A stretch of 64,000 bases of DNA from Candidatus Coatesiibacteriota bacterium (GTDB lineage: Bacteria > RBG-13-66-14 > B26-G2 > JAUVZD01), in the NCBI GenBank assembly GCA_030602715.1, contig JAUVZD010000003.1, positions 124,001 through 188,000 of the forward strand, read 5' to 3'. The notes under the pieces were generated by a model, which saw only the letters and a program-made list of their open reading frames with translations, was not told the origin of the DNA and searched no databases. Positions within the stretch are counted from its first letter, which is position 1; each line of letters starts with the position of its first letter. Position numbers and translations under genes: made by a program. Below, one piece after another: positions 11,221 through 52,438 of the stretch.

Positions 11221-14200
11221 TTGCAGGCGCCGGACACTATATTCAAGTTAGTTGAACGATTTAATAGTAATATTGACCAATACCGCTCCCCGCGCTACAA
11301 CGAAGCCCAATTGCGCACCGAATTCGCCAATCCCTTCTTCATCGCTCTGGGCTGGGATGTATTCAACGAGAAGGGATATGCGGAGGCATACAAAGAGGTG
11401 GTGCACGAAGCTGTGGTCAAGGTGGGTGGAGCCACCAAAGCCCCGGACTACAGCTTCCGCATCGGTGGGACGCGCAAGTTCTTCGTGGAGACCAAGAAAC
11501 CGGCGGTCAACCTGAGCGTTGACCCTCTCCCCGCCTTCCAACTGCGCCGATACGCCTGGTCGGCGAAACTGCCCCTCTCCATCCTGACCGACTTTGAGGA
11601 GTTTGCGGTCTATGACACCCGCATAAAGCCGGCGAAAAACGACAAAGCCTCGGTGGGGCGGATAATCAACCTCACTTACTGCGACTACACCGACCGCTGG
11701 GAGGAGATAGCCGACATCTTCTCCCCCACCGCAATACGCAAGGGCTCCTTTGATAAGTATGTAGAATCCACCCGCAAGAAGAAGGGCACCGCCGAGGTGG
11801 ACGACGCCTTCCTCAAGGATATAGAGTCCTGGCGGGACGAACTGGCGCGTAACATCGCCTTGCGCAATCCCGGTCTCTCCACCCGGGAGCTGAACTTCGC
11901 CGTCCAGCGCATAATTGACCGCATCATCTTTCTGCGCATCTGCGAGGATAGGGGGATAGAGGAATACGGCGAGCTACAATCCCTACTCAAAGAAGCGGAC
12001 ATCTACTCCCGTCTGGTGGCGCTCTTCAACCGCGCCGACGAGCGCTACAACTCCGGGCTCTTCCACTTCAACCGGGAGCGGGGACGACCTCAAAAGCCGG
12101 ACACCCTCACCCCCACCCTTAAGATTGACGACAGGGTTCCCAAAGAGATCATCAAGGAACTTTACTACCCGGAGAGCCCCTACGAGTTCTCGGTCCTGCC
12201 GGCGGACATACTGGGGCAGGTATATGAGCAGTTTCTGGGCAAGGTGATACGGCTGACCCCCGGGCATCGGGCGGTGGTGGAGGAGAAGCCGGAGGTCAAG
12301 AAAGCCGGCGGGGTCTATTATACCCCCACCTACATAGTTGACTACATAGTGGAGAACACCGTGGGCAAGCTGTTGGAGGGAAAGACGCCGCGGCAGGTCT
12401 CCAAGCTGCGCATACTGGACCCGGCCTGCGGATCGGGGTCCTTTCTCATCGGGGCCTATCAGAAGCTGTTGGACTGGCACCAGGAGTGGTATGTTCACCC
12501 CCCCGCCTCTGGCGGGGGCGGGGGGCCGGAGAAGTGGCGTAAGGTTCTGTATGAGGGACCCGAGGGGGAGTGGCGGCTGACCACTGCGGAGCGGAGGCGA
12601 ATATTGCTGAACAACATCTACGGGGTGGACATAGACCCCCAGGCGGTGGAGGTGACCAAGCTCTCGCTACTGCTGAAGGTGTTGGAGGGGGAGAGCGGGG
12701 AGGTCCTCAACCGCCAGTTGGAGATATTCAGGGAGCGGGCACTGCCTGACCTGGCAACCAACATAAAATGCGGTAACTCGCTCATCGGACCGGACTTCTA
12801 CCAGGGCAAGCAGATGAGCCTTTTAAGCGACGAGGAGCGGTTGCGCATAAATGCATTTGACTGGAATGAGGAGTTTAAGGAGATAATGGAGCCCCGCCCC
12901 CCCGCCGATGGCGGGGCAAAGGCGGGGTTTGACGCGGTGATAGGGAACCCGCCGTATGTGAGACAGGAGGGGTTAGGGGAATGGAAGGAATATTTTAAAA
13001 GCCATTATAAGACTTATGCCGGAACAGCAGATTTATATACATATTTTATAGAGAAAGCATTGACCAAATTAAAGCAAAATGGCTATTTTGGATATATTGT
13101 CTCAAATAAGTGGATGAGAGCAAGGTATGGAGAAAAGCTACGGAAATTTGTGAAGCAATATCAAATAGAGCAGTTAATTAATTTTGGAGAGTTGAGGGTT
13201 TTTCAGAATGCAGCGACTTTTCCTTTAATTGTGATTATTAGGAAGACAGAACCGAAGGTAAAAGCGATATATGCGCCAATAAAGAGACTTAGTTTTCAGA
13301 ATCTGACAGAAGAAGTGAAAAATATAGGTTATGAACTAGAAGATAACGCATTGTCTGACGAAGGATTTAGCCTTGTTGTTAATGATTATCAAAATATCAT
13401 TGATAAAATGAAGTCAATTGGAATTCCTCTTGGAGATTATGCAAATGGTAAAATATATAGAGGAGGAGTTACTGGTTTTAATAAAGCTTTTATAATAGAT
13501 AAGAAAACAAGAAACAGGCTTATTTCGGAGGATCCAAAATCAATTGAGATATTAAAACCTATTGTAATAGGAGATGATGTTAGAAGATATTTTTTACATT
13601 TTCGCGATAGATATTTAATATTTGCCAAACACGGTATAGATATAGAGAAATACCCAGCTATCTTAAGTCATTTATCAAAATGGAAAAAGGAATTAACACC
13701 TAAAAAGGATAGAGAAGATAGATATGGAAGAGCAAAAGGCAATTATGAGTGGTTTGAACTGCAATCTGGTGTTGGTTGTCATGTTTATTTTGAAAAACCT
13801 AAAATAATCTATCCTGATATTGCCAAAGAAAGTAGATTTGCATTTGATAAAAATGGACTTTATGTTGATTGTACTGTTTTTATTATACCTTTAAATGATT
13901 ATTATTTATTAGGATTACTAAATTCAAAGCTAATATGGAAATATTTAAAATCATTATGCTATGTTTTAGGTGATCCTGAGAAGAAAGGAAGATTAAGATT
14001 AAAAAGAATTTTTTTGGTAAAAGTTCCCATCCGCACCATTGACTTTGACGACCCGGATGATGTCAAAATGCACGACCGGATGGTGGCGTTGGTGGAGGAG
14101 ATGCTTTCGCTGCACAAGAAGGTTGCCTCCGCCCGCACCGACCACCCCGCCAGGGCGGGGCAACGCCAGATAGACGCCACCGACGGGCAGATAGATAAAC

Positions 14201-14259
14201 TTGTATATGAGCTGTATGGCTTGAGTGAAGAGGAGATAAGGGTGGTGGAGGGGCGGTAG
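11221..14259 (+). CDS. Type IIG (Eco57I-like) restriction-modification enzyme
   Basis: A 1012-residue single-chain restriction endonuclease and N6-adenine methyltransferase. The N-terminal nuclease has a PD-(D/E)xK pattern with Asp76 in APDYSF and Glu90-x-Lys92 in FVETKKP. The methyltransferase has motif I DPACGSGSF near residue 400 and motif IV NPPY near residue 577. The target-recognition region follows, and the C-terminus has KLVYELYGLSEEEIRVVEGR. TTG 11221 has TAGGAGG 6 bases upstream. Bases about 12980-14025 are sharply AT-rich against GC-rich flanks, which suggests a swapped recognition domain. Three GC palindromes (12501, 12900, 14145) lie in frame in linkers. A separate specificity subunit is not seen. 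Target site unknown. Confidence 0.9.
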   Translation: MQAPDTIFKLVERFNSNIDQYRSPRYNEAQLRTEFANPFFIALGWDVFNEKGYAEAYKEVVHEAVVKVGGATKAPDYSFRIGGTRKFFVETKKPAVNLSVDPLPAFQLRRYAWSAKLPLSILTDFEEFAVYDTRIKPAKNDKASVGRIINLTYCDYTDRWEEIADIFSPTAIRKGSFDKYVESTRKKKGTAEVDDAFLKDIESWRDELARNIALRNPGLSTRELNFAVQRIIDRIIFLRICEDRGIEEYGELQSLLKEADIYSRLVALFNRADERYNSGLFHFNRERGRPQKPDTLTPTLKIDDRVPKEIIKELYYPESPYEFSVLPADILGQVYEQFLGKVIRLTPGHRAVVEEKPEVKKAGGVYYTPTYIVDYIVENTVGKLLEGKTPRQVSKLRILDPACGSGSFLIGAYQKLLDWHQEWYVHPPASGGGGGPEKWRKVLYEGPEGEWRLTTAERRRILLNNIYGVDIDPQAVEVTKLSLLLKVLEGESGEVLNRQLEIFRERALPDLATNIKCGNSLIGPDFYQGKQMSLLSDEERLRINAFDWNEEFKEIMEPRPPADGGAKAGFDAVIGNPPYVRQEGLGEWKEYFKSHYKTYAGTADLYTYFIEKALTKLKQNGYFGYIVSNKWMRARYGEKLRKFVKQYQIEQLINFGELRVFQNAATFPLIVIIRKTEPKVKAIYAPIKRLSFQNLTEEVKNIGYELEDNALSDEGFSLVVNDYQNIIDKMKSIGIPLGDYANGKIYRGGVTGFNKAFIIDKKTRNRLISEDPKSIEILKPIVIGDDVRRYFLHFRDRYLIFAKHGIDIEKYPAILSHLSKWKKELTPKKDREDRYGRAKGNYEWFELQSGVGCHVYFEKPKIIYPDIAKESRFAFDKNGLYVDCTVFIIPLNDYYLLGLLNSKLIWKYLKSLCYVLGDPEKKGRLRLKRIFLVKVPIRTIDFDDPDDVKMHDRMVALVEEMLSLHKKVASARTDHPARAGQRQIDATDGQIDKLVYELYGLSEEEIRVVEGR
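12501..12517. repeat. GC palindrome, in-frame copy 1 in the type IIG gene
   Basis: CCCCGCC-TCT-GGCGGGG, translated within HPPASGGGGGPEK between methyltransferase motif I and the next conserved block. Confidence 0.78.
12900..12916. repeat. GC palindrome, in-frame copy 2 in the type IIG gene
   Basis: CCCCGCC-GAT-GGCGGGG with extra half-arms on both sides (12892-12898 and 12921-12927). Translated as PRPPADGGAKAGFDAV just before NPPY. Confidence 0.78.
14145..14160. repeat. GC palindrome, in-frame copy 3 in the type IIG gene
   Basis: CCCCGCC-AG-GGCGGGG with a two-base loop. Translated in TDHPARAGQRQID just before the conserved C-terminal tail. Confidence 0.7.
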
Positions 14260-43971: not shown

Positions 43972-45426
43972 ATGCAGATACTTTTACTAAATCCCCCCTT
44001 CCTGCCCCGCTTCTCCCGTGAACAGCGCAGTCCGGCGGTCACCAAAAGCGGGACGCTCTACTATCCCATGTGGCTCTCCTATGCCTGCGCCCTACTGGAG
44101 GAGAGGGGTTACGAATGTACTCTGATAGACGGCGTGGTCCCCGGCGGGGAGGAGAGGCTGGCGGAGTATATGAAGCGGAGCCGACCGTCGCTGGTCGTCA
44201 TCGCCACCTCCACGCCCAGCATAGAGAACGACCTGGAGTGGGTGAGGAGGCTTGATGCAAAATTCCCCGATGCCTTCATCCTTGCCGTGGGTCCCCATGT
44301 CTCCGCTCTGGGCCACGAAGTGCTCAAGCTCTGTCCCCAACTGGACGGGGTGGCGCTCGGCGAGTATGAGCTGACCACCTGCGAGCTTGCCGAAGCCCTC
44401 GCCAGAGGAAAGAGACCGCGGAGTCTGGTGGGGGCAATACTGCGCAAAGGTAAAAAGCTTAGCCCCGCCTTTGGCGGGGGCGGACGGCGACCCTTATTGC
44501 GCAATTTAGATGAATTGCCCTTCGCAACCCCGGTCTATAAGAAGCATCTCAACTATACAGATTATTTCTACGCCCACAGCAAACATCCCATGGTTACCAT
44601 CCTCTCGGCGCGGGGCTGTCCCAATCGGTGCATCTACTGCGTCTATCCGCAGACTTTCACCGGTCATCTCTATCGCACCCGCTCCATAGACAACATCTGC
44701 GAGGAGATCGCTTATATCAAACGCACCTTCCAGCCCCTGAGCGAGTTGATGTTTGAGGACGACACCTTCACCATAGACCAGGGGCGGACTCAAGCCCTCT
44801 GCGAGGAGATGGTGCGCAGGGGGCTTTCCATGCCCTTCTCCGCAAACGCCCGGGTGGACATCGGTTATGATACCCTGCGGGCGATGAAAGCCGCCGGCTG
44901 TCGTCTGATGTGCGTGGGAATAGAGAGCGGGGACCAGGGGGTGCTGGACAACATCGGCAAGGGGACGAATCTGGCGCAGATAGAGCGCTTTTTCCGGGAT
45001 GCTCGTCGGGCGGGCATACTCATCCACGGCTGTTTCATGGTGGGAAACCCGGGAGAAGACAGGAACACTCTTGAGAAGACTATGGCTTTCGCCATGAAGC
45101 TTGAGCCGGACACGGCACAGTTCTTTCCGGTGATGAGCTACCCCGGCACCCGCCTGCATAAGTGGGCTCTGGAACACGGCTACATAACCGCCCGGAGCTA
45201 CTCGGAGTGGCTGAACGAGGAAGGGGGGCATAACTGCGTGGTCTCCCGCCCGGGCTTGACCAGCGACGACCTGGTGCGCTTCTGCGATTCGGCAAGGAGG
45301 CGCTTCTACCTGGCGCCAAGCTATCTACTGAGAAAGCTCCTGCAGAGCTGTCTAAAGCCCCAGGAGGCGCTCCGCACCCTGAAGTCGGCGAGGAGGTTTT
45401 TTTGGCACCTAGTGAAGGGGAGGTAG
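43972..45426 (+). CDS. B12-binding-domain radical SAM enzyme
   Basis: A 484-residue BchE-like class B radical SAM protein. The N-terminal cobalamin-binding domain (LLLNPPFLPRFSREQRSP, residues 1-150) precedes the radical SAM barrel, with cluster motif CPNRCIYC in SARGCPNRCIYCVYP near residue 220. FMVGNPGEDRNTLEKT is typical of the family. Members methylate or rearrange carbon centres; the substrate is not inferable. A GC palindrome at 44463-44479 is translated in KLSPAFGGGGRRPL in the linker between the domains. The stop region GTGAAGGGGAGGTAG is repeated in a relic at 46257. Confidence 0.88.
   Translation: MQILLLNPPFLPRFSREQRSPAVTKSGTLYYPMWLSYACALLEERGYECTLIDGVVPGGEERLAEYMKRSRPSLVVIATSTPSIENDLEWVRRLDAKFPDAFILAVGPHVSALGHEVLKLCPQLDGVALGEYELTTCELAEALARGKRPRSLVGAILRKGKKLSPAFGGGGRRPLLRNLDELPFATPVYKKHLNYTDYFYAHSKHPMVTILSARGCPNRCIYCVYPQTFTGHLYRTRSIDNICEEIAYIKRTFQPLSELMFEDDTFTIDQGRTQALCEEMVRRGLSMPFSANARVDIGYDTLRAMKAAGCRLMCVGIESGDQGVLDNIGKGTNLAQIERFFRDARRAGILIHGCFMVGNPGEDRNTLEKTMAFAMKLEPDTAQFFPVMSYPGTRLHKWALEHGYITARSYSEWLNEEGGHNCVVSRPGLTSDDLVRFCDSARRRFYLAPSYLLRKLLQSCLKPQEALRTLKSARRFFWHLVKGR
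44463..44479. repeat. GC palindrome inside the radical SAM gene
   Basis: CCCCGCC-TTT-GGCGGGG, identical to the intergenic copy at 42780 and inverted relative to 10947. Falls in the linker between B12 and radical SAM domains. Confidence 0.82.
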
Positions 45427-45489
45427 GGGAGGGGAATTATGTATTGAAAAGCAATGATTTTTTTCTAATAATGAGGTGAGGAATTGAAT

Positions 45490-45804
45490 ATGAATCCGCA
45501 TATACAGGTTGATAAGGAACGGATAACCGAGTTTTGCAGGAAATATCGCATACGCAGTATGTCCTTTTTCGGTTCAGTTCTCAGGGAGGATTTTAGTGGG
45601 GAAAGCGATGTGGATGTGATGGTGAGCTTCAATGAGGATGCCCATTGGAGCCTTCTTGACTTAGTGAATATGCAGGAGGAGCTTGCGGGTATCCTCGGTC
45701 GGGAGGTGGATTTAGTTGAACGTGAGGCGATTGAAGCAAGCGAGAACTATATCCGACGCCGGCACATCCTGCAAACCGAGGAGCCGATATATGTGGAGGG
45801 ATGA
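45490..45804 (+). CDS. mntA: MntA-type nucleotidyltransferase antitoxin
   Basis: A 104-residue minimal nucleotidyltransferase. The active-site pattern is FFGSVLREDFSGESDVDVMV, which includes GS and the D-x-D metal pair. In HEPN-MNT systems the MNT protein adds AMP to a tyrosine of the HEPN toxin to silence it. ATG 45490 has GAGGTGAGG eight bases upstream. The next gene begins inside its last codons, the usual toxin-antitoxin order. Confidence 0.88.
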   Translation: MNPHIQVDKERITEFCRKYRIRSMSFFGSVLREDFSGESDVDVMVSFNEDAHWSLLDLVNMQEELAGILGREVDLVEREAIEASENYIRRRHILQTEEPIYVEG

Positions 45805-46147
45805 TGCATATTTGTTGGATATGCTTCTGGCGTCGAGAAAGATTCTTCAATTTACAAAAGATACGACCCTAGAGCAGTTCCGAACGGATGAAATGATGCA
45901 GCATGCCATAATGCGGTTGATACAAATCATCGGGGAGGCGGCGAGAAAAATATCAACACAATTTACTGAGTCACACCCGGAAATTCCCTGGAAAGGGATA
46001 ATCGGGATGCGACATAGACTGATACATGAGTATTTCCGTGTAAACCCAGATAAAGTATGGGAGGTAGTTGAAAAGGATATTCCTGTGCTTATTCCTCTTA
46101 TTGAACCGCTTGTTCCATCTGATGAATCCCCTGAAGAAAATAGGTGA
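45791..46147 (+). CDS. hepT: HEPN (DUF86) RNase toxin
   Basis: A 118-residue all-alpha HEPN protein with the catalytic Rx4HxY motif RHRLIHEY (Arg and His cut RNA, Tyr is the AMPylation site). Flanking segments IIGEAARKIS and IPWKGIIGMRHRLIHEYF are standard for HepT. It overlaps mntA by 14 bases. Neither gene shows truncation, so the pair may be active. It sits between a radical SAM gene and a relic zone in the second accessory island. Confidence 0.9.
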   Translation: MWRDDAYLLDMLLASRKILQFTKDTTLEQFRTDEMMQHAIMRLIQIIGEAARKISTQFTESHPEIPWKGIIGMRHRLIHEYFRVNPDKVWEVVEKDIPVLIPLIEPLVPSDESPEENR

Positions 46148-46230
46148 TGCATTCAAGTTCTACCTTTGCATGTGAAAATTGGTTCAATAAGATTGTGGTT
46201 GATGACAATCTAGTGGAAACTGCAAACACC

Positions 46231-46278
46231 ATGCGCTCAGCTAGGTCGTTTGAAAGGCATCTGGTGAAGGGGAGGTAG
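46231..46278 (+). pseudogene. Leftover 3' end of a radical SAM gene
   Basis: This frame reads MRSARSFERHLVKGR then stop, matching the end of the enzyme at 43972 (KSARRFFWHLVKGR). No upstream domain remains. A second shorter echo (HLVK) follows at 46291 in another frame. Confidence 0.62.
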
Positions 46279-46289
46279 AGGGGGGCAGG

Positions 46290-46406
46290 GCATTTAGTGA
46301 AGCCCTCAAACGCCGGATAGACGCCACCGACAGGCGGATAGACAATCTGGTCTATGAGCTGTATGGGCTGACCGAGGAGGAGATAAGGGTAGTGGAGGGG
46401 AGGTAG
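46290..46406 (+). pseudogene. Leftover 3' end of a type IIG restriction gene
   Basis: This frame reads AFSEALKRRIDATDRRIDNL then VYELYGLTEEEIRVVEGR and stop. It closely matches the tail of the enzyme at 11221 and is the third copy of that tail in the window. The rest of 46148-46458 shows decayed sequence without a gene. Confidence 0.78.
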
Positions 46407-46458: not shown

Positions 46459-47505
46459 TTACTTATGTCTATATTCGTTTCTAACCTGATTGCTATAGAT
46501 TTTTAATTCTTCCAAATCCTTAATTACTTTTTCATTTTGTCTTGCCTTATCAGACGAAAAATATTTTGGTGTGTTCAAGATTATTTTCTTTAGATCACTT
46601 ATATATTTTGTATTTTCACCGTTATTGTCTGTTTTTGTAAATTTTACAACCGAGTTTAGCATTCTCGTTTCTTTTGGTTTCTTGTAATATTCGTACACAT
46701 AAATATCATGGTGTTCACAGTTCCAACCATTATCTTTTGCCGATGAGATAATAAAAGTTTTTGCGAAACCAAAAACCCGCCTCTTCAATTCTTCTATTTC
46801 ATCATACAATGCTGTTCCATATTCTTTTAATAATAATTCTTCTAATTTTGGGTAATTATAAATGTTTTTAGAAATATCTCGTTTGAAATTTGCTTCAACA
46901 TCATTATGTATTTCAGAAAAATCCGTTGTTAAGAATAATAAGAAAGAGTTTATCCCCTTTTGAAGTGTGAATATTTTATTGTAGGCTTTATACATTTCAT
47001 TGTCCTCAAAGATAGTATTAACTAGGCACTCGTATGGATCAAAATTAATGATATCGAACGGAAATAAACTTTCTAATTCTTTATTCTTGCTTTTATAATA
47101 TACATAATCTCGAATTTCAATTGAGTCGACATCTGTATCATCTTTTCGTAATTGCATTTCAACCTCTTCGGATTCTTCAAAATTAAGTATTTTCTGTAGT
47201 TCTCCAACAATGAGACCAGCATTTAATGGTGGACGAACATCTCTATCAATATCAGCTGCTGCAGATTGATCAGATTCGCATATGTGTACATCAATTAAAT
47301 AACCATCACTATCTCTAAATAAGATCTTTGCTTTTTCTAACATAAATATATCTATACCTTCCCTTGCACAGAGTGTGAAATACTTTAATATTTTCTTCTG
47401 GTTCTCTTTTTTGAACTTTTTACTAGCGGGTAACCAACCGTAGTATCGAACACAATGTTTTTCAATATATTCCCAATAATCTATGTTTGGATAGTCATTT
47501 TTCAC
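46459..47505 (-). CDS. Unrecognised protein of the DndC-GHKL operon, weakly methyltransferase-like
   Basis: A 348-residue AT-rich gene product with no firm family match. Three spaced segments recall a class I methyltransferase: YFTLCAREGIDIFML (42-56), VHICESDQ (73-80, an acidic residue after a strand) and FDIINFDPY (150-158, resembling motif IV). No glycine-rich motif I is clear, so this is only a suggestion; a three-Cys-motif-partner-like fold is one possibility. The C-terminal half is charged and helical. Its start overlaps the GHKL ATPase stop by four bases, so it is the last gene of a coupled three-gene operon. Confidence 0.7.
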   Translation of the reverse strand: MKNDYPNIDYWEYIEKHCVRYYGWLPASKKFKKENQKKILKYFTLCAREGIDIFMLEKAKILFRDSDGYLIDVHICESDQSAAADIDRDVRPPLNAGLIVGELQKILNFEESEEVEMQLRKDDTDVDSIEIRDYVYYKSKNKELESLFPFDIINFDPYECLVNTIFEDNEMYKAYNKIFTLQKGINSFLLFLTTDFSEIHNDVEANFKRDISKNIYNYPKLEELLLKEYGTALYDEIEELKRRVFGFAKTFIISSAKDNGWNCEHHDIYVYEYYKKPKETRMLNSVVKFTKTDNNGENTKYISDLKKIILNTPKYFSSDKARQNEKVIKDLEELKIYSNQVRNEYRHK

Positions 47506-49142
47506 AATAGAACCTCCATAAATTGTATTAATATATCTTGAAAAATATTATGCCTCTCTTCTTCATCTTCTGCAATTTGCTCAGCGATTGAATATGTAAG
47601 TTCTACTGCTCTAATTATTGATTTCACTCTCTTTCTTGTTGAAGGAAGTGAAGAAGTATTTAAAATTATCTCACCTTTTTCTTCATTAACTTTAATTATG
47701 GGTTCATCTCTTTTAAGTGCTTTTTCTAATAGTTTATATTTTCCGTTTGAATGTTTATATATAATGTCTTTTAGATCCTTTTTAAATTTTTTTTCTTTTC
47801 GTTGTCGTTTTTTTTCTTGACTCTTATCTGCAATCGAACTTATTTTAGAAAAAATTTCATTTAATTCTTGATGTAGTTCAAATTTTAACTTTTTATAATG
47901 TTCATTATGTTCATTGAAGCTGTCTCTATCAATATTCAAAGCATCTTCTAACCCTTCATCAACGAAAATTTCACCTGATAACCACCTTTCTTTTACAGTT
48001 GGAATTTTTCTAAAAAATTTCAAAAATGTTTGGTCATAAACTCCAATCCCCACTTCTTTAAGCCTTATTTGAACTCCAGTTATTTCTAATGGTCTAATTG
48101 CTCTATGTATTTGGGCAAACAAGTAACCAGAAAATTTCAAACGTTCATTACCAATTATCTGGTCAAAATTTATAAAATATAACCTGGGAATAATATCATT
48201 CTTTCTTTCACTGGGTAGTATTATTAATCGGCGTAAATCTATACCTTCAAATATTATTCTGAAATTATAAGATAAAAATGTCTTTTGGCGTTCTTCTATA
48301 AACTCTTTTGCTCTTTGAAAATCCTCTCTTTCATTTTCATCCATTTCAACTTTATTAAAAGAACTAATATTGATTGGGAAATTGTCAGAACTTCCAAAAT
48401 AGGGTAAAGGTGAAAGAATAGATAATTCCCATATAGTTTCAAGATACGATTTCCATTCCTGTATGGATTTCTTTTTGTCAAAAAACCTGGTTTGTAAGTC
48501 TTCTTGTTTAAAGGGTATTCTATTAATATTCTTTTTACATAAATCATCCGGTAAACCCTTTTTCATCTCTTTTTTAAAAGTAGAGCGTACATCTTTTGAA
48601 TAAATCCGGAAACCCTTCTTACGTTTGTCAAATTCAATTTCATCCAATAACCAAGTACCAACTTTTATTTCCTTTTGTTTTCCATTTTTCAGATTATCTT
48701 TAATTTTCGGTATTTCTGTGTCTAAAAGTATAATGTGCGCTTTAAAAGCTTTACCTACACCATTTTCAAAATAATGAGACTCCATGAAAAAACTATTACA
48801 AATCTGTCCAATAGATATCATTCCTATTCCTAATCTACCGATTATTGGCCGTTTAAATCTGCCAGTTTCTATATTACCAGCTCTTTTTACGCAACTTCCT
48901 ATTCCTTCTTTAACAAAATACCTTTCAAATTCATTTCTTGTCATTCCATCGCCATTATCAACACAAGATATAAAATCAAAATAAGGGAAATTAAGACTAA
49001 TCCTTACTTCTGTTGCACCAGCATCGTATGAATTATTTACTAATTCTTTTAAAACTGCTGCACTACTCCTATAAACACCACGGCTTAAATGGTCTAGAGT
49101 TATTGATGATACTTTTATGTCTTTATAATTGTTTCTCTTCAT
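47502..49142 (-). CDS. GHKL (Hsp90/MutL/MORC-like) ATPase
   Basis: A 546-residue protein with a GHKL ATPase domain at residues 10-120. The N-box is ELVNNSYDAGA (Glu33, Asn37), followed by DNGDGM (62-67) and GRLGIGM (102-108). A second alpha-beta domain and a Lys-rich coiled region (about 430-480) follow. Similar ATPases appear in MORC proteins, MutL and several defence systems, where nucleotide binding drives dimer clamp closure. It lacks the MutL endonuclease motif. It overlaps both neighbours, giving strict co-expression with the DndC-like gene. AT-rich, unlike the flanking chromosome. Confidence 0.85.
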   Translation of the reverse strand: MKRNNYKDIKVSSITLDHLSRGVYRSSAAVLKELVNNSYDAGATEVRISLNFPYFDFISCVDNGDGMTRNEFERYFVKEGIGSCVKRAGNIETGRFKRPIIGRLGIGMISIGQICNSFFMESHYFENGVGKAFKAHIILLDTEIPKIKDNLKNGKQKEIKVGTWLLDEIEFDKRKKGFRIYSKDVRSTFKKEMKKGLPDDLCKKNINRIPFKQEDLQTRFFDKKKSIQEWKSYLETIWELSILSPLPYFGSSDNFPINISSFNKVEMDENEREDFQRAKEFIEERQKTFLSYNFRIIFEGIDLRRLIILPSERKNDIIPRLYFINFDQIIGNERLKFSGYLFAQIHRAIRPLEITGVQIRLKEVGIGVYDQTFLKFFRKIPTVKERWLSGEIFVDEGLEDALNIDRDSFNEHNEHYKKLKFELHQELNEIFSKISSIADKSQEKKRQRKEKKFKKDLKDIIYKHSNGKYKLLEKALKRDEPIIKVNEEKGEIILNTSSLPSTRKRVKSIIRAVELTYSIAEQIAEDEEERHNIFQDILIQFMEVLL

Positions 49143-50373
49143 AGTACATTACTCGTTTAGAATCTAAGTAAAGAGGAGAAGCTTTTCTTACTTTCAATAA
49201 TTTACATTCCCCCAAATGTAATGGACCTAATCTTTTCCGGGGAGAAGTAATGATATTATAATCAGATATAGCTGTATATTTTTTGCCATTTGCTAGCCTA
49301 AATTTAAATTGTTTCATTCCATCAATTGCTTCCGTTTTGTACTCAATTTTTAATAAGTAATTTATGTAAGCTAATTCTTCTTTTGATATTAAATCGAAAT
49401 TCAAAGATTCCTGGATCTTTAGCAATTTTGTTAAAATTTCCAATCGTGTTCTTAACAAAAAAGCTCCAAATTTTACTTTATTTTCTACACTTTTAGGGAC
49501 ATATTGGTTTTTTTGTTGGCGTATATCAAAAAGCCAATTTCTAAAATCCAAAAGTATTTGCATTTTTTCTTCTCCGTTGTCGATGATATTTTCCATTGAA
49601 ACATCTTTATCAACTACAGTACACACCCAACAACCAAATCTTGATTTACCACAACTCTGCTGTTTAATATCTATTACATATGGGCATTCTCCTCCTCTAG
49701 AAGCGTTACGGTATAAATTGAGGAGATTGTGGTTATCATAACCCCACGGATTTGGTGATGTTAGAAGATATGCCCATACATCATTGTTTGATAAATCTGC
49801 TATTGGAGCGAAGACTTTTAAATTGCGTGATTTGTGTTTTAAGTAACGCCCACCCTTTCTGTGATTTCTAATTGATATAGCACGATTAGCTGATTCAGAA
49901 CTTCTAATTCCAAGTATAACAATCACTGTTTTAGAATTCCCAAAAGTATTTATTATATAATCATTCGTAGGTTTAATCTTAAGACGATCTGTACACCACC
50001 GGAACCACCTATTTGGCGATGGATAACCTCTTCCTATCAAATTAACCCAAAAAGTATCTTCTATCTTAGGTGTGACTTTTTTAACATTAAATAAGAGAGG
50101 ATTGTGTTTGAAAAGCTGTTCTTTCCCTGCTTTTTTAATAAACATCAACTGTTTATCAATATATTCAATTATCATAGGATTTTCAACTAGTGTATCATTA
50201 GATATTACATGTAATTCTTTTTTCAATTTGTTCCCTGGCAATGTTTTAAGTGCATAAAATATAAATTGCAATAATGCTGTGCTATCTTTTCCACCTGAAA
50301 AACCAATAACCCAAGGAAAAGAATTTCTAAGGTATGTTTCTTTTATGTCATCAATGATTTTTTTATATATCAT
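49123..50373 (-). CDS. DndC/PAPS-reductase-family sulfurtransferase
   Basis: A 416-residue ATP-pyrophosphatase of the PAPS reductase family, closest in layout to DndC, which delivers sulfur to the DNA backbone. The PP-loop is GFSGGKDSTALL (SGGKDS at 26-31). Cysteines that could hold an iron-sulfur cluster lie in RWCTDRLK and in SCGKSRFGCWVC, four in all as in DndC. DndB, DndD, DndE and a cysteine desulfurase are absent; a GHKL ATPase and an unknown protein take their place. AAGGAGGGG precedes ATG 50373, with a good promoter. First gene of the operon. DNA or another nucleic acid as substrate is inference. Confidence 0.85.
   Translation of the reverse strand: MIYKKIIDDIKETYLRNSFPWVIGFSGGKDSTALLQFIFYALKTLPGNKLKKELHVISNDTLVENPMIIEYIDKQLMFIKKAGKEQLFKHNPLLFNVKKVTPKIEDTFWVNLIGRGYPSPNRWFRWCTDRLKIKPTNDYIINTFGNSKTVIVILGIRSSESANRAISIRNHRKGGRYLKHKSRNLKVFAPIADLSNNDVWAYLLTSPNPWGYDNHNLLNLYRNASRGGECPYVIDIKQQSCGKSRFGCWVCTVVDKDVSMENIIDNGEEKMQILLDFRNWLFDIRQQKNQYVPKSVENKVKFGAFLLRTRLEILTKLLKIQESLNFDLISKEELAYINYLLKIEYKTEAIDGMKQFKFRLANGKKYTAISDYNIITSPRKRLGPLHLGECKLLKVRKASPLYLDSKRVMYYEEKQL

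Positions 50374-50500: not shown

Positions 50501-52438
<1,938 letters not shown>

Follow-up and report, generated by a model that had tools for sequence, protein, structure and literature searches.

A DndC sulfurtransferase gene coupled to genes for a GHKL ATPase and a predicted methyltransferase-fold protein in a Candidatus Coatesiibacteriota genome

The three genes of the operon

A stretch of 64,000 nucleotides from a Candidatus Coatesiibacteriota bacterium (contig JAUVZD010000003.1, positions 124,001 to 188,000; hereafter the window, with positions counted from its first letter) carries a minus-strand operon encoding a DndC sulfurtransferase, a GHKL ATPase and a third protein with a predicted methyltransferase fold. 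An earlier reading of the letters alone (the sequence-only reading) had proposed that this trio could be an undescribed nucleic-acid modification or defence module. The three open reading frames (ORFs), their coordinates and their 20- and 4-base overlaps are exactly as that reading gave them. The genes and the features discussed below are:

49123-50373, minus strand: operon gene 1, PP-loop sulfurtransferase DndC, 416 amino acids, ATG start
50281-50298, minus strand: PP-loop SGGKDS, DndC residues 26-31, invariant in six DndC
49996-50028, minus strand: DndC "specificity loop" GYPSPNRWFRW, residues 116-126, with the triplet N-R-W, aligned to E. coli GYPAPTRSFRW
49126-49281, minus strand: DndC C-terminal tail, about residues 365-416, in place of the DndD-binding segment
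47502-49142, minus strand: gene 2, GHKL-S5 ATPase (MORC/paraMORC-like), 546 amino acids, ATG start
47898-47912, minus strand: ExxxH motif, E411-H415, in the S5 region of the GHKL protein, invariant in six relatives (locus L174 has H for E)
46459-47505, minus strand: gene 3, predicted methyltransferase-fold protein, remote relative of NF047698, 348 amino acids, GTG start
47029-47049, minus strand: INFDPYE, residues 153-159 of the third protein, of which N154 and D156 alone are invariant across the family

The dndC and GHKL genes overlap by 20 bp (49123-49142) and the GHKL and third genes by 4 bp (47502-47505), and Shine-Dalgarno-like leaders precede dndC (AGGAGGGG) and the third gene (GGAGG). 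All three ORFs are intact, with conserved catalytic residues. The block had been described as AT-rich, and its GC content is indeed 29-31%, against about 52% for the window.

Judged by its sequence, gene 1 is a true DndC, orthologous to the DndC of Dnd systems. It scores 376 bits against TIGR03183, the curated DndC profile (cut-off 290.4), falls inside DndC in the tree, and in PADLOC reaches 402 bits for DndC as compared with 48 for SspD and 50 for BrxP, which rules out these two. A metabolic 3'-phosphoadenosine 5'-phosphosulfate (PAPS) or adenosine 5'-phosphosulfate reductase, the grouping that the sequence-only reading had named as fatal to its proposal, is ruled out by the TIGR03183 score. 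The SGGKDS PP-loop is present, and the cysteine layout that had been called DndC-like agrees with DndC in spacing, not in the count of four: there are five cysteines (C127, C230, C241, C248 and C251), those at 230, 241, 248 and 251 after C127 corresponding in spacing to residues 262, 273, 280 and 283 after C146 of E. coli DndC, where they belong to the Fe-S cluster and a DndC-specific pair (PMC12193691). The cysteines of both the cluster and the dyad are thus kept. The specificity loop, defined in the same work, has been proposed to read DNA sequence; since NRWFRWC had served as a search pattern in the DndC scan, the NRW triplet is unusable as evidence of a common specificity. One PADLOC model, PDLC03333, bears the label "Type II methyltransferase" but gives 252 bits with DndC; it is probably a sulfurtransferase model under a wrong label.

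Gene 2 is a GHKL-S5 ATPase without a C-terminal nuclease. It matches HATPase_c_3 at 46 bits (cut-off 25), and the ATP-site residues E33, N37, D62, G64, G66, G102, G105 and G107 are invariant in seven relatives. The ExxxH motif is the published signature of paraMORC2, a family whose members sit in restriction-modification (R-M) operons (PMC2292703). PADLOC returns weak N-terminal REase_II matches, and the match to NF050001 (BbrUII/HgiDII; 89 bits, cut-off 550) covers the N-terminal ~200 amino acids only, the alignment stopping before the nuclease. Fold searches with a predicted model retrieve MutL, Hsp90 and topoisomerases, matches that confirm the superfamily only because the model is of low confidence (pLDDT 64).

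The third protein is predicted to have a class I Rossmann methyltransferase fold, for which the sequence-only reading had suggested structure prediction as a check. AlphaFold2 modelling from six relatives yields a METHYLTRANSFERASE fold (pLDDT 88), whose top Foldseek matches in the PDB are S-adenosylmethionine (SAM)-dependent methyltransferases (E 8e-4 to 0.04; TM by target mostly 0.3-0.5), which supports a methyltransferase-like fold despite the loss of the glycine loop that would bind SAM. Invariant residues are E77, at the end of strand 2 (six relatives), and N154 and D156, after strand 4 (seven relatives). The claim that NFDPY represents motif IV does not survive: the relatives have NFDAY, NFDPC, NFDIV or NLDVC, only IIN-x-D being kept, so a DPPY-type amino-methyltransferase motif is ruled out. 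Rather than being an enzyme, the protein may serve as a binding subunit. Its sole named kin, NF047698 (PP_RS20740), is a remote homologue at 41 bits (cut-off 200), as compared with 316 bits for the corresponding protein of L174, and PADLOC gives no match. A Three-Cys-motif partner (TcmP, TIGR04474), suspected from an N-terminal KH...W and a DP[FY]G-like pattern, was rejected at an hhalign probability of 2%.

Recurrence of the trio and the altered DndC tail

Whether the trio recurs elsewhere had been named as a test of the proposal. Relatives of the trio were located by an alignment-based scan with a DndC profile over 84,980 species, and two WOR-3 genomes (L102 and L103) and one Saprospiraceae genome (L117) turned out to have the three genes in the same order, with 43-53% identity to the window in the GHKL protein and 35-39% in the third protein. 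Every trio genome has a single full-length member of the GHKL family. In L102 the trio has the end of a restriction subunit gene on one side and a DNA adenine methyltransferase gene on the other, while in L117 an HNH gene lies inside the operon, between dndC and the GHKL gene, and its product resembles phosphorothioate-dependent restriction enzymes (NF045808, 94 bits, below the curated cut-off of 180). Other searches yielded little: single-protein scans of genome contigs and viral contigs by exact 8-mers gave no match, nor did the third protein in plasmids, phages and viral contigs; surveys with NF047698 and the third protein found at most one genome per few hundred; and a weak match to G104 (L013) was due to chance.

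The absence of Dnd partners near DndC, pointed out in the sequence-only reading, extends to the whole genome for DndD and DndE. Neither DndD nor DndE (PF08870) was found in the genome of the window (G000, 100% complete) or in the remaining trio genomes (G629, G630 and G631), and the same profile search finds both in two Poribacteria genomes (G632 and G633). DndB is not in the trio operon. SspB/SspC or PglZ/BrxL are not among the genes adjacent to the trio, the rest of the genome not having been searched for these. Cysteine desulfurases of the IscS/NifS-like (L189) and SufS-like (L185) types are encoded in G000, unlinked to the trio, and an unlinked desulfurase is common for Dnd systems (PMC10853773).

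According to a published model, DndD touches E. coli DndC at residues 433-482 and at the C-terminal helix (PMC12193691). A leave-one-out profile of the 433-482 segment, with 44 DndD-linked DndC as the reference, gave a median of 48 bits over these 44 (five below 12), as compared with 2.8 bits for the window DndC and less than 3 bits for all four members of its clade. The window clade (the window, L101, L102 and L103; support 100/100) branches inside dndD-linked DndC; its sister clade is dndD-linked and keeps the segment (41-44 bits). Members of the window clade share instead a common tail, RKRLGPLHL...STRVMYY, conserved across three phyla. A lost DndD segment together with a new tail is what would be expected if DndC now docked on something other than DndD. 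The DndC of L117 keeps the segment (43 bits). It falls in a different DndC clade, and therefore the DndC trio must either have arisen two or more times or have exchanged its DndC. In the Bacillota genome represented by L101, where no GHKL gene of the trio family was found, the window-clade dndC is followed by a ParB-like gene (L101:1717-3871).

A constant pair beside different modification genes

The GHKL and third genes are also found together in the company of other DNA-modification genes. In Poribacteria (L114 and L116) the pair is convergent to a complete dndCDE set and lies beside a dnd_assoc_4-like gene, and it is possibly the restriction partner of a full Dnd system there; the gene run reads third gene, GHKL, dnd_assoc_4 and an SMC-like ATPase gene (L114:6947-15141 and L116:6923-15049). 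In the gammaproteobacterial locus L174 the order is C5-cytosine methyltransferase, GHKL (24% identity, 2e-37) and NF047698. The pair is thus constant and found with three kinds of modification gene, since DndC, dndCDE and C5-methyltransferase contexts are all observed. The tree of the GHKL proteins and that of the third proteins agree in topology, with weak inner supports.

The L174 operon (L174:8005-12252, minus strand) also places the unnamed PP_RS20740 family in a genomic context, one suggestive of membership in an R-M-like system. Druantia II was considered for L174, where the methyltransferase resembles DruM, and was rejected because the neighbours do not match DruF, DruG or DruE. Compact DndC-like genes also came to light elsewhere. 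In the provirus L041 (2106-7017) genes for a Shedu-type GHKL protein, a C5-methyltransferase-like protein, a probable membrane protein and a compact DndC-like protein of 346 amino acids stand in a row, and L040 has the same pair of membrane-like protein and compact DndC; in the phage contigs L027 (5977-7017), L046 (1352-2392) and L037 (478-1344) the compact gene directly follows a polymerase-like gene, without a dnd cluster, and these genes may be phage-encoded sulfurtransferases.

The surroundings of the trio in the window, given as context only, comprise gyrB, a toxin-antitoxin pair and a radical SAM gene, together with a restriction-gene relic:

50501-52435: gyrB; the trio sits between it and the MntA/HepT pair
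45484-46147, plus strand: MntA/HepT-type toxin-antitoxin genes adjoining the trio (HepT-like 100 bits, NTP_transf_2 51 bits)
46290-46406, plus strand: relic of the C-terminus of an Eco57I/TaqI-type restriction-methylase

Both the toxin-antitoxin neighbour and the relic had been recognised in the sequence-only reading. The relic peptide is 74% identical over 35 amino acids to the end of a window ORF for an Eco57I/TaqI-type restriction-methylase (11221-14259, plus strand). The MntA/HepT pair is bracketed by a 59-bp direct repeat (45375-45433 and 46227-46285, 73% identical).

A match to an already named system would have told against the proposal, and the trio matches none: in PADLOC gene 1 is identified as DndC, gene 2 has its weak REase_II matches, and gene 3 has no match. 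Gene 1 links the trio to DndABCDE by its score, five cysteines and specificity loop, but DndD, DndE and DndB are absent from the operon, the DndD-contact segment of DndC is replaced, and the GHKL and methyltransferase-fold pair stands in their stead. The L174 operon has homologous GHKL and third proteins in the same order, but its marking gene encodes a C5-methyltransferase rather than DndC, and the window third protein is only remotely similar. In the type II enzymes BbrUII/HgiDII (GHKL plus nuclease behind a C5-methyltransferase; paraMORC3/Shedu I-D) a related N-terminal GHKL follows a modification gene; however, the window GHKL lacks the C-terminal PD-(D/E)XK nuclease, there is an additional methyltransferase-fold protein, and DndC replaces the C5-methyltransferase. 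The likeness to paraMORC2 is one of architecture and motif (GHKL plus S5, the ExxxH in the S5 region, R-M-type neighbourhoods; PMC2292703), but the text of that paper has no mention of a linkage to DndC. SspABCD and BREX type 4 (SspD/BrxP) likewise have a PAPS-reductase-like sulfurtransferase that replaces or complements methylation, whereas gene 1 is DndC and the neighbours of the trio are not PglZ, BrxL, SspB or SspC. No publication pairing DndC with GHKL or MORC proteins in the sense of the trio was found in a search that left subscription papers and preprints outside, and neither the 2024 Dnd reappraisal (PMC10853773) nor a 2026 BREX survey speaks of GHKL or MORC in its text.

Possible roles of the operon

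None of the three outcomes by which the sequence-only reading could have been refuted was observed. The proposal of an undescribed nucleic-acid modification or defence module is supported by genomic context (C5-methyltransferase, dndCDE, the phosphorothioate-type HNH and R-M neighbours), and we favour, with a probability of roughly 0.5 (0.52), an R-M-like module in which a constant pair of GHKL-S5 ATPase and methyltransferase-fold protein is combined with an exchangeable DNA-marking enzyme, here DndC. R-M systems include other GHKL proteins, of the paraMORC type (PMC2292703), and one GHKL-nuclease protein has been proven to be anti-phage (PMC12137116). In such a module DndC would take sulphur from an unlinked housekeeping IscS-like desulfurase and put it on self DNA at a site read by the specificity loop; the GHKL protein would act as an ATP-driven clamp, as MutL does, with the methyltransferase-fold protein as a subunit that reads DNA or the mark; and the pair would tell marked self from unmarked foreign DNA, on which it would act either itself or by way of a nuclease that it recruits. 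In the window clade the pair would probably also serve as a platform for DndC in place of DndD/DndE.

Several points weigh against this proposal, the most serious being the lack of a recognisable nuclease in the window trio: Pfam, PADLOC, NCBIfam and fold comparison all showed no nuclease domain in either the GHKL or the third protein. The glycine (GxG) SAM loop of the third protein is replaced by TLCAxEAID, the HNH match in L117 stays below its cut-off, the trio is known from four genomes, of which the three besides that of the window are metagenome-assembled genomes (MAGs), and the fragmentary Bacillota MAG of L101 has the window-clade tail, yet no GHKL gene was found in it. Moreover, DNA sulphuration in Streptomyces lividans requires dndA, C, D and E (PMC2653506), and because DndD and DndE are essential there, the window DndC may not modify DNA; the 2024 reappraisal likewise sees DndD and DndE together as the functional core of Dnd systems, without which the modification component would not function (PMC10853773).

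A more specific version of the modular proposal can be put forward only tentatively. It would see in the trio a minimal third phosphorothioation machine, DndC without DndD/DndE but with a MutL/MORC-like GHKL clamp and a methyltransferase-fold DNA reader. This machine would belong to a modular class of R-M systems that share one GHKL core and in which cytosine methylation can stand in for backbone sulphur as the self mark, and vice versa.

The alternative of a complex for modification only is rather doubtful. The GHKL protein would replace DndD and the methyltransferase-fold protein DndE; with DndCDE and SspBCD as the first two, this would make a third machine for phosphorothioation, and restriction would be done elsewhere or not at all. 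The need of DndC in known systems for an ATPase or DNA-scanning partner (PMC2653506; PMC10853773), the loss of the DndD interface with conservation of the new tail, the separate HNH in L117 and the lack of a nuclease in the window trio all agree with it. However, the pair should not be needed for modification either in L174, where it follows a C5-methyltransferase, an enzyme type that works alone, or in Poribacteria, where dndCDE is complete, and the DndC of L117 keeps its DndD-contact segment though DndD is gone. It is improbable that DndC has a different chemistry or target, with RNA, nucleotides or protein as its substrate, or that it works as an effector which the GHKL and third proteins activate in the role of sensor: this would accord with the missing DndD/DndE and with the compact DndC-like proteins of phage contigs without a dnd cluster (L027, L041 and L042), but the DNA specificity loop, the Fe-S cysteines and the dyad are all kept, L117 has its phosphorothioate-type HNH, and a C5-methyltransferase occupies the same operon position in L174. 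A degraded dnd cluster, its leftover DndC lying by chance next to an unrelated pair, would suit the AT-rich island with a neighbouring restriction relic and the absence of DndD/DndE, but is very improbable and largely refuted by the recurrence of the gene order in two further phyla, the intact overlapping ORFs with conserved catalytic residues, the recurrence of the pair beside other DNA-modification genes and the clade-specific tail conserved across phyla.

A recurrent DndC that is found without DndD/DndE, has lost the DndD segment and has gained a GHKL pair offers a compact test of the abilities of DndC itself. The exchange of DndC and C5-methyltransferase on one pair is the counterpart, seen from the GHKL side, of the swapping of marks that has been reported for DndDE cores, and for prokaryotic MORC-like ATPases it points to a possible new role, the sensing of a DNA backbone mark.

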